A stretch of DNA of 31,916 nucleotides from a virus, in IMG/VR virus record IMGVR_UViG_3300037119_003937, positions 1-31,916 of that record; one strand, given 5' to 3'. The translations under genes were made by a program, and so were the position numbers. Shown one piece after another: positions 19,631 through 25,726 of the stretch (position 1 is its first letter; every line of letters begins with the position of its first letter). Below the pieces are notes generated by a model. That model was not told where the DNA came from. It ran no database searches and saw only the letters and a program-made list of their open reading frames with translations.

Positions 19631-20104
19631 TCAAGATTTCTTGGCCTCAGTGGAAGCGCGTGCCAGCGTTTGATAGTAGAAGTGATGCAGGAACCCAAGC
19701 GGCGCTTTCCACATCCCGCCCATCTCACGCAGCCACAGCGCTCTACCTGACCGCCCATTGCCATCGGTAAACGGGTGCAGGATCTCGTACTCAACGTGCA
19801 TCTCGTAGGCGTCTCGCACCTTGTCCTTGTTTTCCAGCATGGAAGCTAGAGCAGCCTGCACCTGCGGCCCACCACGAGGCGCTATGTGATCCCCTACGCG
19901 AACGTCTAACCCCTGAATGAACCTGGGCTTAGCGTTTGGCTGGTAGACCGCTACGAGGTTGATCAGGTCGGAGACGGTGATGGGCCTTCCGGTGCGCGAC
20001 AGAAACCTCGCCGTGGCCGCGACTTCCTCGCCTGTCGGCTCGCGGTGGATGCCTTCGATGCGGTTCGACTCGCGCACGAAGTCATCAAGCGAGAAGATTT
20101 TCAC
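19631..20104 (-). CDS. Fic-family protein with N-terminal inhibitory motif
   Basis: A 157-residue protein starting at GTG, overlapping the upstream stop by four bases (GTGA), with AGGGGAG upstream. Residues 110-121 (HPFTDGNGRSGR) are a complete Fic active site: His110 as the base, Asp/Gly/Asn and two arginines for the nucleotide phosphates. Residues 65-80 (LDVRVGDHIAPRGGPQV) match the Fic flap that positions a target strand. Residues 13-18 (SNRIEG) match the (S/T)xxxE(G/N) inhibitory helix, so this is a class II-like enzyme with its switch on the same chain. Known Fic proteins AMPylate or phosphorylate Tyr, Thr or Ser of target proteins. The target here is unknown. It is the last gene of the leftward operon, in a GC-rich patch. 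Confidence 0.88.
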   Translation of the reverse strand: MKIFSLDDFVRESNRIEGIHREPTGEEVAATARFLSRTGRPITVSDLINLVAVYQPNAKPRFIQGLDVRVGDHIAPRGGPQVQAALASMLENKDKVRDAYEMHVEYEILHPFTDGNGRSGRALWLREMGGMWKAPLGFLHHFYYQTLARASTEAKKS

Positions 20105-22530: not shown

Positions 22531-23073
22531 TTAGTGGGCCGGGGGTGTGGTACCTACCGCTTTTTCTCTACCCGGACCCAATATAGCGTCCAGCTTCTCC
22601 CAGACTCCCTTTGGCATTCCCTCTTTAATGTTGAATAGGTAGTTGGATCCATTTTGGAACACCACCTGCATGAAACGATTTCCCATGAGAGATTCTGCCG
22701 AAGCACGGCAGCAGAGTTCTGCCATGTCTGCTACTTTGAGAAGAATTTTCTCCTCTGGTGTTAAAGTTTCATAAGCCTTGAATTTCATGTTGTAGAGTTC
22801 ATCTACCTTCTCCTCAATTTCTTCAAGAATCTCGCCCATGTTCCCCAGCCACTTTGCAGTGGCGGGAATATCCCCCGTTATATGTTCGTATCCGTCGTGT
22901 TCCAGGATAGCGCGTACTAGATTATCTGAAACGAAACCATCTGCTAGGTAAAAGGCGACTACTAGCACACGAGCCGTATGGTCCCCGACTGTTTGTTCCC
23001 GAATACAGGGAACAGTATGAAATCTTTTTACATCGTAGGCACGGAACAGGTGCCCTAGTTGTTCAGAGTTCAT
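22531..23073 (-). CDS. HD-domain nucleotidase, YfbR/DatZ-like
   Basis: A 180-residue HD phosphohydrolase. The sequence VKRFHTVP (15-22) and QTVGDHTARV (27-36) provide the first metal His32; HD motif H59-D60 with E63 (EHDGYE), D68 in TGDIP and D116 (LKVADMAEL) complete the site. This is the layout of YfbR 5'-deoxynucleotidases and of phage DatZ-type dNTP phosphohydrolases, which remove an unwanted nucleotide from the pool. Its start overlaps the TS-like gene by 11 bases. In this neighbourhood a plausible role is lowering dTMP or dTTP so that the modified dUMP derivative is used, but the substrate is not readable from sequence. Confidence 0.85.
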   Translation of the reverse strand: MNSEQLGHLFRAYDVKRFHTVPCIREQTVGDHTARVLVVAFYLADGFVSDNLVRAILEHDGYEHITGDIPATAKWLGNMGEILEEIEEKVDELYNMKFKAYETLTPEEKILLKVADMAELCCRASAESLMGNRFMQVVFQNGSNYLFNIKEGMPKGVWEKLDAILGPGREKAVGTTPPAH

Positions 23074-23983
23074 CCTTCATCCTTTCATCGTAACGTTCGC
23101 AAGCGAGACGCCAGTCTGTAGCCTTGCATAGTCTTGAATTTCTTTGAAGTAACGGCACAGCCACCTCTTCAAAGAATGGCTCTTGAAATCCTCTTCTCTT
23201 ATTGTGGAAAACTAAATCCTCACATTCGCGAAGCCATGAGCCTAGATCACCTTGAAGTATGGGGTAAGCTCCAACTCCAAGCTCTTCATAAGTTTGATGC
23301 TCTGGTGGTCTTTCAAGGAAAAGCCAGTGTCTCTTGTAGATATGAAGATTATTCGTTACTTGATACATCGGTCCTACACTCATTCGTAAAGATGAGGCCA
23401 TTAGTTCATGGAGAAAAGAGAAATGTACGATGTTAGAACCAACAGCGCCCCACACCAGATCATTAGATCTGTTGAGCACTGTCATCGTTAGAGAATTATC
23501 TTGGTACGCACGAAAATAAATGTGAGTATTGCAGGGAAGATCCTTCTTTTCCACTCCGAGATCTAGATTTGGATCCCACATGGATATGACTGCTCGCCGT
23601 GTAGTGGGATCTCTGCGAAGCATAGCCCGAACATCCAGTAGTTGATCTGAATTAAAGTGCTCTCGCCAGCGGAAGCCATAAGCTCCGTGAATCTCCCCCG
23701 TTTCTTCCGCATAATCCATCATTCGCGGGTTAAAATCTTCCAACCAAGCGGCGATATCACAACCTGCCATCATCCACAGACATTCGGCGAAGTGGAAATA
23801 GGGATTTTCCTTACGTTCCGGCACGAACAGCACCCGATTTCTTGGCCGTAATGTCGTCAGAGTAACGGGGTGTGGAATGGTCTTTACGAGACCATTACGT
23901 GAATTCTCTTCTATACCCGTAGCCCTCATTTTCCACAAACATTCTGTAAAGAGAGAACTAGCCTCCAGAGCCCGAATTTCCAT
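23063..23983 (-). CDS. thymidylate-synthase-fold protein, likely dUMP hydroxymethyltransferase
   Basis: A 306-residue protein with GGAGATAG before its ATG. Conserved thymidylate synthase residues: R129-R130 (TTRRAVIS), catalytic Cys151 in LPCNTHIYF, R172-S173-N174-D175, N184 (GSNIVHF) and H214/Y216 (NLHIY). N184 corresponds to the Asn that selects uracil rather than cytosine. Cys-Asn-Thr after Pro and Arg-Ser-Asn-Asp resemble T4 dCMP hydroxymethylase (as I recall CTNT and RSND) more than canonical ThyA (Cys-His and Arg-Ser-Cys/Ala-Asp). With N184 this suggests dUMP to 5-hydroxymethyl-dUMP. Plain thymidylate synthase is the alternative. It is downstream of the glycosyltransferase and helical-domain genes, which supports the hydroxymethyl role. 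Confidence 0.85.
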   Translation of the reverse strand: MEIRALEASSLFTECLWKMRATGIEENSRNGLVKTIPHPVTLTTLRPRNRVLFVPERKENPYFHFAECLWMMAGCDIAAWLEDFNPRMMDYAEETGEIHGAYGFRWREHFNSDQLLDVRAMLRRDPTTRRAVISMWDPNLDLGVEKKDLPCNTHIYFRAYQDNSLTMTVLNRSNDLVWGAVGSNIVHFSFLHELMASSLRMSVGPMYQVTNNLHIYKRHWLFLERPPEHQTYEELGVGAYPILQGDLGSWLRECEDLVFHNKRRGFQEPFFEEVAVPLLQRNSRLCKATDWRLACERYDERMKDEL

Positions 23984-24170
23984 CTTCTATCTCCGTAACT
24001 TCCAAATTGAAATGTTTAGCGAATTTCTCCGCTGCCTCTTCGCTAGCGAATACGAGAACCTGCCAATCGTTATCAACGGTTACAAGAGCGGTCAAGCGCC
24101 CGTCAGGATATTTGAATCTTTTTACAAGTCTTCCATCAGTACCGCTGCTTTGGTGTTCCTTCTCCGACAT
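23958..24170 (-). CDS. 70-residue protein nested between base-modification genes
   Basis: I start it at the ATG at 24170, preceded by GGAAGG; a longer start at 24290 lies in the previous gene. The 70 residues contain a likely beta-beta-alpha core: DGRLVKRFKYPDGRLTALVTV, then DNDWQVLVF and the helix SEEAAEKFAKHF. Its 5' end overlaps the helical-domain gene by 35 bases and its 3' end overlaps the TS-like gene by 26. This coupling suggests the product works with the modification enzymes. No family is recognised; a small accessory or DNA-binding factor is a guess. Confidence 0.65.
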   Translation of the reverse strand: MSEKEHQSSGTDGRLVKRFKYPDGRLTALVTVDNDWQVLVFASEEAAEKFAKHFNLEVTEIEDGNSGSGG

Positions 24171-24978
24171 ATGCCTTCCAGTATTTTGAAAATTCACAGA
24201 GGCAGTTTTGAAAATCCTGCATACAGATCTGGAGCCCTCCTTCATCTTTGAAGTGTTCCTCTTCAACTTTGTGGTACAGGGTGGTAGCATGCAGTAGGAA
24301 ATGCCTTTCCGACAAGTCCTGACGTGCTAGGACATTACGGAGACCACGCAGGCTACCGGGGCCGGGGGCTGCCCAACTCCACCAGTCTGGGGCTTTTTGA
24401 AGTGGGTGATAGGGCGTATTTTTGATATCTGCAATGACTTGAGCAGAAAGAAAGGAACCCAGTCCTTTGAACTGTGTGAGATAGTTGAAGTACACCTCAA
24501 GAGTTTCTTCTCCAGGAAGGTACTGCCTGGAGTGTTGGTACACAGAGTCAGCCACGCCAACGATATAATCTACTTTGTCCATTCGCACACCACAGGTCGT
24601 AATGAGATACGCCGCGTTGAGGATTTTTGCCCCCGAGTCTCTTCGAGCTTTGATGTGCGCTATTAGCGCATCTTTATTCCATTGTTCTGGGAACCCAATT
24701 TCTTGAAGAGTATCCGGATTATTCAGCATTCTAGCAAGAACCATAGCCGGAAGTAGATTCTCATGATACACATAGGGATTTCTCCAGTGATTCGCAATCC
24801 ACTTAGTAACCCGGTCATCTTCACGTCGCACGTTCGTAAAGCGATAGTTATTCAGGATAGGGTCTTCTGTCCATGGGCGTGCTAGCCCCGCTTCTTTCTC
24901 GGCGAGGATGTTTCTGCGCTCTTTAATCCAGAACGCCAAAAGTGCGCTGCGATCAGGCTCTAGATTTTCCGTATTCAT
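24136..24978 (-). CDS. 5-hmdU DNA kinase helical-domain protein (no P-loop)
   Basis: A 280-residue protein matching the helical domain of 5-hydroxymethyl-dU DNA kinases (earlier called alpha-glutamyl/putrescinyl-thymine pyrophosphorylase, type 2). Signatures are FWIKERRNILAEKEAG (16-31), PWTEDPI (35-41), YRFTNVRREDDRVTKWI (45-61), a helix-hairpin-helix FKGLGSFLSAQVIADI (170-185), GPGSLRGL (206-213) and the late LCEFSKYWKA (260-269). No Walker A sequence is present anywhere, so the kinase half seen in phages such as M6 and ViI is missing. The HhH with Asp184 recalls DNA glycosylases; binding or flipping a modified base is the likely role. It overlaps the glycosyltransferase by 26 bases. Confidence 0.85.
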   Translation of the reverse strand: MNTENLEPDRSALLAFWIKERRNILAEKEAGLARPWTEDPILNNYRFTNVRREDDRVTKWIANHWRNPYVYHENLLPAMVLARMLNNPDTLQEIGFPEQWNKDALIAHIKARRDSGAKILNAAYLITTCGVRMDKVDYIVGVADSVYQHSRQYLPGEETLEVYFNYLTQFKGLGSFLSAQVIADIKNTPYHPLQKAPDWWSWAAPGPGSLRGLRNVLARQDLSERHFLLHATTLYHKVEEEHFKDEGGLQICMQDFQNCLCEFSKYWKAYVGEGTPKQRY

Positions 24979-25726
24979 ACGCCGCCTTCCATTGTATAAT
25001 TACATCTTCTCGTTCTCGTCCTTGCCACGCCGTCGCAGTTTTCTTCTTTACCACGTTTACGAAGTCAGGAAAGATTTCTTGTAGTCTTCGTGCCGCTGCG
25101 CTTTGCTTTTCCATCGTACGATAAGTAGAACATCCACCAGCGGAATTACTTCCTCCTTGATTTTGCACCATCCAGTTGATACTCATATGGGGATATCCCC
25201 TAGTGAGTAAGCTTAACTGAACGTAGAAATCTTCCATCAACTCCATATGTCGGAAGTCGATTTTGAGGTCTAGAAGAACATCAGTTCGATACGCCAAAGC
25301 TCGTAAAGCACGAGTGTTCATGACGTAACGGTCTGTTCGACGATTTCCTCCTTCTCTGGGAGAAATTGCTACATGGATATAATCGTCGAGAAGATTACTA
25401 ACTTCACTGAAGACTAACCCAAGTTCGTCATCTGTTGGAGTACGAAACTTGCTGGTTTCGTCCGTACGTCTGATAGCGAATGTAAGGTCATCGTCTAACA
25501 TTAAGACCTTCGCATCGCCTTTGCCATAGGCGAAATCACAAATAGCTTGCCGGGTGGCTCCGATACCTGAGACTTCCATGGCTAATACTGGAAGCTTGTA
25601 TACTTGATACGACTTTACTTCTTCTTTTGGAACTACTAGAATTACTTGCTCCCGAATTTCTGGGGGAAGTCCCATTAAGGTGACTTGCTTCGTGGCCCTA
25701 GCTCTACTAGGGATAGCGATGAGCAT
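24953..25726 (-). CDS. TET-associated-type glycosyltransferase (GT-A-like)
   Basis: A 257-residue protein with GAGGAA before its ATG. It opens IAIPSRARATKQ, a nucleotide-sugar-binding start, and has the metal motif LMLDDDLTF (Asp78-80). An acidic motif MELMEDFYVQLSLL (near residues 158-171), a Gly-rich segment NQGGSNSAGGCSTY and the C-terminal REREDVIIQWK fit the phage glycosyltransferase family that Iyer, Aravind and colleagues called TET/JBP-associated (TAGT), predicted to glycosylate hydroxymethyl pyrimidines in DNA. The sugar is not predictable. It leads a run of overlapping genes with the 5-hmdU-kinase helical domain and the TS-like enzyme, so hmdU in DNA is the likely acceptor. Confidence 0.85.
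   Translation of the reverse strand: MLIAIPSRARATKQVTLMGLPPEIREQVILVVPKEEVKSYQVYKLPVLAMEVSGIGATRQAICDFAYGKGDAKVLMLDDDLTFAIRRTDETSKFRTPTDDELGLVFSEVSNLLDDYIHVAISPREGGNRRTDRYVMNTRALRALAYRTDVLLDLKIDFRHMELMEDFYVQLSLLTRGYPHMSINWMVQNQGGSNSAGGCSTYRTMEKQSAAARRLQEIFPDFVNVVKKKTATAWQGREREDVIIQWKAAYEYGKSRA

Follow-up and report, generated by a model that had tools for sequence, protein, structure and literature searches.

A candidate glycosyltransferase branch of phage thymidine hypermodification

The thymidine hypermodification operons of phages M6, PaMx11 (Pseudomonas) and Pam3 (Pseudanabaena) encode a P-loop 5-hydroxymethyldeoxyuridine (5-hmdU) DNA kinase, an amino acid:DNA transferase (ADDT) and tailoring enzymes (radical SAM, pyridoxal phosphate [PLP], flavin adenine dinucleotide [FAD] or acetyltransferase enzymes). 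We analyzed a 31,916-base virus record from IMG/VR (IMGVR_UViG_3300037119_003937; a linear fragment, hereafter “the window”) that resembles these phages in having genes for a helical protein of the HMUDK_hel family (HEL), a thymidylate synthase (TS)-like enzyme, an HD phosphohydrolase (HD) and a family-A DNA polymerase in the same order, with a DUF3310 gene as in M6 and PaMx11. Unlike them, it has no kinase gene at the corresponding position but one for a GT-A glycosyltransferase of the TAGT family (GT). The operon is probably a GT branch of phage thymidine hypermodification, in which 5-hmdUMP would be made, incorporated into DNA and O-glycosylated there by GT with HEL.

Comparable gene sets occur in other phages. 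The set was reported in 2022 in HTVC023P-type pelagiphages, which are marine podoviruses (PMC9599517), and hence is not new in itself; the accessible portions of that report describe no product or mechanism, make no comparison of kinase and GT, and do not interpret the set as a GT branch. The cultured Brevibacterium phage LuckyBarnes (NC_047851) is similar in having adjacent genes for a TS-like enzyme, two TAGT proteins and HEL, and no kinase. It differs in its gene order (TS-GT-GT-HEL), its second GT, its longer TS (517 aa) and its distantly related HEL, and an HD gene was not found beside this cluster. DNA modification by a “dCMP-hydroxymethylase” and two GTs was proposed for LuckyBarnes in 2019 (PMC6588365). 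The uncultured phage MW202897 (circular, 40 kb) has genes for a TAGT protein (39.8% identical to GT), a TS-like enzyme, HD and DUF3310 in order, but differs from the window in having no HEL in its genome. Kinetoplastid base J belongs to the product class predicted here, O-glycosylated 5-hydroxymethyluracil in DNA (PMC6449724). However, JBP1/2 hydroxylate thymine in DNA, whereas the hydroxymethyl group is predicted here to come from the nucleotide pool via the TS-like enzyme. Glucosylated 5-hmdU was stated to be unreported in phages in 2019 (PMC6449724). What appears to be new is the reading of GT and kinase as exchanged for one another, an exchange not described in the accessible portions of the pelagiphage report; the main papers on the pathway lay outside the literature search. 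The gene content suggests a second branch of viral thymine camouflage, and operons of the GT-HEL type are common in contigs from viral metagenomes.

The gene upstream of HEL: glycosyltransferase or kinase

In M6, PaMx11, Ab18, Bordetella phage CN1 and Pam3, a gene for a small P-loop protein lies directly upstream of HEL. The M6 and Pam3 proteins match the 5-hmdU DNA kinase family PF18748, and the Ab18 protein does so more weakly. HEL is followed by TS, HD and then, in most of these phages, DUF3310. The window keeps this order, but GT sits upstream of HEL, so that the order conserved across loci reads [GT or kinase]-HEL-(small)-TS-HD-DUF3310. An earlier note on this DNA had proposed a search for the gene set in other phages; the same order was found in dozens of other contigs, which places the set far from a chance association.

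GT and kinase were not found together. A total of 103 HEL loci were gathered, the majority of them from viral contigs; their neighbors were labeled with iterated profiles, and dereplication at 90% HEL identity left 77. GT alone was present at 43 of these loci, kinase alone at 20, neither at 14 and both at none (Fisher p 9e-10 for the exclusion, with kinship among the 77 loci ignored). The GT or kinase gene usually overlaps or abuts HEL. The HEL tree has at least eight switches between GT and kinase among the loci bearing one of the two.

The other enzymes of the kinase route are also missing. No 5-hmdU kinase (PF18748 and the A4 kinase profile) and no ADDT (PF18724) was found in the window or in any GT-type record scanned whole. 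As positive controls, the kinase profile was found in Pam3 and in a kinase-type record, G011, and ADDT was found in Pam3 and, weakly, in G011. Likewise, neither radical SAM (PF04055) nor PALP (PF00291, PLP) was detected in the window or in three complete relatives, while both were found in the controls M6 and Pam3. The three GT-type relatives are taken as complete because they have terminal direct repeats: 43,072 bp (77-bp repeat), 41,810 bp (123 bp) and 41,516 bp (50 bp). The largest is collinear with the window over ~25 genes. Thus, the operon differs from the pathways of M6 (5-NedU, 5-(2-aminoethyl)deoxyuridine) and ViI (5-NeOmdU, 5-(2-aminoethoxy)methyldeoxyuridine), as the earlier note had claimed, in that no kinase, amino-acid transferase, radical SAM or PLP enzyme was found.

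Among the 14 loci with neither GT nor kinase, 10 have an open reading frame (ORF) directly upstream of HEL. At one of these loci (L064) the product has a TAGT match below the cut-off (9.7e-6), and that at another (L016) matches Glycos_transf_1 weakly (0.0021). Three families of such genes look GT-B-like by eye, for which profile and PDB searches gave no confirmation. At three loci (L069 8039-9987, L064 8107-9946 and L099 7545-9974), a radical SAM-like gene and then a glycosyltransferase-like gene stand directly upstream of HEL, and a SPASM domain was confirmed in the radical SAM-like gene of L069. Lacking both the kinase and a standard TAGT, these loci possibly represent a third pathway type. 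At a further locus (L077 1114-2231), two tandem kinase-family genes lie directly upstream of HEL. In Mesyanzhinovviridae, the 5-hmdU DNA kinase is labeled “terminase small subunit” in NC_007809, NC_026594, NC_028770 and NC_047876.

Protein families and predicted functions

The family assignments made in the earlier note for GT, HEL, TS and HD agree with Pfam matches above the curated cut-offs and, for GT, TS and HD, with PHROGs matches. GT matches TAGT (PF20691) with an E-value of 3.5e-16 and 60.2 bits (cut-off 27.5), and phrog_842 with an E-value of 2.3e-49. Across 41 relatives, D78, D79, G197-G198 and R203 are invariant and D80 is nearly so; the acidic metal-binding motif of the TAGT family is present as DDD at positions 78-80. 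The AlphaFold2 model of GT has a predicted local distance difference test score (pLDDT) of 94.7, and its top PDB matches include GT-A glycosyltransferases and nucleotidyltransferases (E ~1e-5). A sequence-based search for a solved structure gave no convincing match for GT or for HEL. The TAGT family takes its name from an association with TET/JBP dioxygenases; no such dioxygenase turned up among the scanned window proteins, although no TET/JBP model was run over the whole record.

The TS-like enzyme is predicted to hydroxymethylate dUMP. It matches PF00303 (E 2.5e-23) and phrog_5131 (E 4.8e-82), its nucleophile C151 is invariant, and its closest matches among phage records are the enzymes of M6-type phages. 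In pairwise alignments, Asn184 falls on the Asn of thymidylate synthases; dCMP/CMP hydroxymethylases carry Asp at this position, as seen in MilA. This Asn is nearly invariant among the TS-like relatives, is the same in M6-type enzymes, and is also present in LuckyBarnes TS. In T4 gp42, Asp179 is the determinant of dCMP specificity (PMC6400193). A loop insertion puts T4 one residue off in the multiple alignment, so the assignment of Asn184 rests on the pairwise alignments and on its near-invariance.

HD matches the YfbR-like family PF12917 (E 4.1e-7, 30.3 bits, cut-off 25.9), HD_3 (7e-4), phrog_6047 and phrog_7076, and the metal-binding residues H / HD / D are present in the translation, as judged by eye. 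HD occurs at GT-type and kinase-type loci alike and thus belongs to the early steps that the two pathways share. It is not essential, however, because no HD gene was recognized in several GT-type relatives, among them G009, which is complete.

HEL matches PF18723 (HMUDK_hel) with an E-value of 9.4e-36 and 124 bits (cut-off 25) over profile positions 8-276 of 281. Conservation of at least 90% in both GT-linked and kinase-linked relatives is seen at 39 HEL positions, and no strong class-specific position separating the two was found. Therefore, HEL likely has the same job in both pathways; the simplest inference from the sequences is that it would serve either neighboring catalyst by binding DNA and presenting 5-hmdU. 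The AlphaFold2 model of HEL (pLDDT 95.4) has no strong match in the PDB, the best being to helix-hairpin-helix 8-oxoguanine DNA glycosylases (E 0.19, probability 0.93), enzymes that bind DNA and flip bases. In a search of viral structures, the model matches the 637-aa SP10 5-hmdU DNA kinase. In Bacillus phage SBSphiC, a single 636-aa ORF contains both the kinase (PF18748, residues 35-193) and HEL (PF18723, residues 312-597). Among viral contigs, no fusion of GT to HEL or of kinase to HEL was found. The SBSphiC ORF (L117 2035-3945) is unannotated and is followed by a TS-like gene.

HEL also occurs outside the operons discussed so far. It was formerly named aG/PT-PPlase1, and orthologous genes in near-identical phages carry either name. 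The older name suggested an amino-acid transferase, a role that was rejected because the transferase is a separate gene of a separate family (PaMx11 gp46, PF18724, PDB 8z2m). HEL homologs are found in bacterial and archaeal genome contigs, including those of Bradyrhizobium, Ramlibacter, Haloferax elongans and many Alphaproteobacteria (L122, L127, L129, L131, L144, L151, L152 and L160-L177), with no recognized TS, kinase or TAGT nearby. These homologs possibly have roles in defense or other base handling. In the case of an aGPT-Pplase domain, DefensePredictor points to defense (PMC13092281). HEL is also encoded by about 40 cultured Microbacterium phages (Pikmin and relatives, L109); in Pikmin, it lies near a TS labeled ThyX, a gene labeled as thymidylate kinase and a protein whose TAGT match is weak (0.0043).

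Proposed pathway and alternative explanations

How might the operon work? The TS-like enzyme would convert dUMP to 5-hydroxymethyl-dUMP, which phage or host kinases would raise to the triphosphate, and the family-A polymerase would insert hmdU for some or all dTMP. HEL would then bind the DNA and present 5-hydroxymethyluracil to GT. As the slot swap and the protein families suggest, GT would move a sugar from a nucleotide-sugar donor onto the hydroxymethyl oxygen in DNA. Because GT stands in for the 5-hmdU DNA kinase found in M6/PaMx11-type operons, the kinase and amino-acid transferase route would be skipped. The product would be O-glycosyl-5-hmdU, chemically like the eukaryotic base J (“base J-like” refers to the predicted product only). 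HD may clear competing deoxynucleotides, and the glycosylated base would shield DNA against nucleases and glycosylases of the host. The proposal of the earlier note, that a GT and a helical-domain protein are part of an operon for thymine (5-hmdU) modification, is supported by families, gene context and the absence of the kinase route. The note did not recognize that GT occupies the position of the 5-hmdU DNA kinase, that GT and kinase exclude each other, that HEL is a partner or domain of the kinase rather than an enzyme known to finish a base alone, or that the gene set had been described in pelagiphages.

A broader version of this idea, for which the case is tentative and falls a little short of even, is that HEL is a common 5-hmdU-reading, base-presenting module to which phages attach differing heads: a P-loop kinase, a GT-A protein (TAGT) or other GT-like proteins. 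If so, GT and HEL would form a two-subunit 5-hmdU DNA glycosyltransferase, unlike the single-chain T-even enzymes, and would set the same TG/TC dinucleotide preference as in kinase-type phages.

Several observations weigh against the proposed GT branch. The exclusion of GT and kinase is exceptionless in the sampled set, but significance is not reached after correction for kinship: there are nine supported independent GT contrasts, in which kinase changes in the opposite direction in a median of four and in the same direction in none (sign test p ~0.125). The likeness of HEL to DNA glycosylases is weak, at a best E-value of 0.19. The presence of TAGT, TS and HD without HEL in MW202897 means that HEL may be dispensable for a TAGT protein. 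The substrates of known TAGT-type enzymes are cytosine derivatives; for example, TAGT in T6-like phages is thought to put a second glucose on glucosyl-5-hydroxymethylcytosine (PMC13390438). Finally, a literature search found no virion-DNA analysis of any GT-type phage.

The absence of HEL from MW202897 would also fit a different role for this protein, as a catalyst that acts before or after GT and is related in fold to amino acid:DNA transferases. For example, HEL could swap or extend the sugar, giving a final base beyond glycosyl-5-hmdU. HEL shares a remote fold with the PaMx11 gp46 glycinyltransferase (TM ~0.45, rank 13 in the PDB structure search), it has ADDT matches in the viral structure search, and its 23 invariant residues over 67 sequences are enzyme-like. 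Nevertheless, kinase-type phages have their own transfer enzyme (ADDT) and yet keep HEL, the kinase and HEL form a single protein in SBSphiC, and the lack of a strong residue difference between GT-linked and kinase-linked HEL argues for one role in both pathways. Catalysis by HEL is therefore unlikely, although it is the most credible of the alternatives. Glycosylation of 5-hydroxymethylcytosine (hmC) in the T-even style, with the TS-like enzyme as a dCMP hydroxymethylase and GT as an hmC glucosyltransferase, is quite improbable. The T-even TAGT members act on hmC derivatives (PMC13390438), the name of phrog_842 points the same way, and the LuckyBarnes enzyme was called a dCMP hydroxymethylase by its authors (PMC6588365). 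However, the specificity residue Asn184 is that of TS and M6-type enzymes rather than the Asp of T4 gp42 and MilA (PMC6400193), the best phage matches of the TS-like enzyme are in M6-type phages, and HEL belongs to 5-hmdU kinase systems.

Given that the window is only a 31.9-kb fragment, a 5-hmdU kinase and an amino-acid transferase could be encoded in the rest of the genome or come from the host, with GT merely adding an accessory group to a base of the M6 kind. This is very improbable, since the complete relatives (43.1, 41.8 and 41.5 kb) have GT but no kinase, ADDT, radical SAM or PALP in scans with positive controls, and no locus has both GT and kinase. Many phage glycosyltransferases serve host surface glycans of the O-antigen type, and GT could be one of these, beside DNA genes by chance. 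That explanation is hardly credible for a single TAGT-family gene that has a 26-nt overlap with HEL and lies recurrently beside HEL and TS in a replication operon.

What are the implications of a GT branch? It would yield glycosylated 5-hmdU through the same first steps as M6-type hypermodification, with one enzyme swapped. It would also explain the purpose of the conserved helical protein in 5-hmdU kinase systems. In duplex DNA, T4 beta-GT acts on 5-hmdU only in a mismatch with guanine (PMC4111573); GT-type operons would be a source of enzymes that place sugars on 5-hmdU in duplex DNA. The prediction is directly testable in the cultured phage LuckyBarnes.

Layout of the operon and its surroundings

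The operon lies in the leftward replication half of the window (Table 1). The earlier note had listed five ORFs on the minus strand, from GT to HD, as an overlapping leftward run; all five are present without internal stops, and each neighboring pair overlaps (GT/HEL by 26 nt, small protein/TS by 26 nt and TS/HD by 11 nt, with HEL and the small protein also overlapping). The conserved unit extends one gene past HD to DUF3310, and the same downstream order is seen in most relatives, M6 included.

Table 1. Genes of the operon and of the surrounding replication half of the window.
Feature	Coordinates	Strand	Families and remarks
Family-A DNA polymerase	30278-28488	minus	leftward replication half
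PD-(D/E)XK nuclease	28504-27866	minus	leftward replication half
SNF2-type helicase	27655-26237	minus	leftward replication half
TAGT-family GT-A glycosyltransferase (GT), 257 aa	25726-24953	minus	PF20691, phrog_842; occupies the slot taken by the 5-hmdU DNA kinase in M6-type phages
HEL, HMUDK_hel helical protein, 280 aa	24978-24136	minus	PF18723; proposed DNA-recognition/base-presenting partner
Small conserved protein, ~70 aa	24170-23958	minus	relatives at the same place in GT-type and some kinase-type loci
TS-like pyrimidine hydroxymethylase, predicted dUMP 5-hydroxymethylase, 306 aa	23983-23063	minus	PF00303, phrog_5131
HD phosphohydrolase, YfbR-like 5'-deoxynucleotidase (family), 180 aa	23073-22531	minus	PF12917, HD_3, phrog_6047, phrog_7076
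DUF3310 protein	22524-22222	minus	PF11753 (E 2.5e-6)
DNA ligase	22028-21183	minus	leftward replication half

The small protein has no family match in Pfam or PHROGs. Its gene is among those in the earlier note, but the 110-aa ORF drawn for it from 24290 is probably over-extended. Many relatives are only ~70 aa long, with starts ~35 nt upstream of the point where HEL ends; the likely start is therefore the ATG at 24170, giving 70 aa. Between the structural and replication halves, at 19631-20104 on the minus strand, the window also encodes a small protein with a Fic-like motif (HPFTDGNGRSGR).

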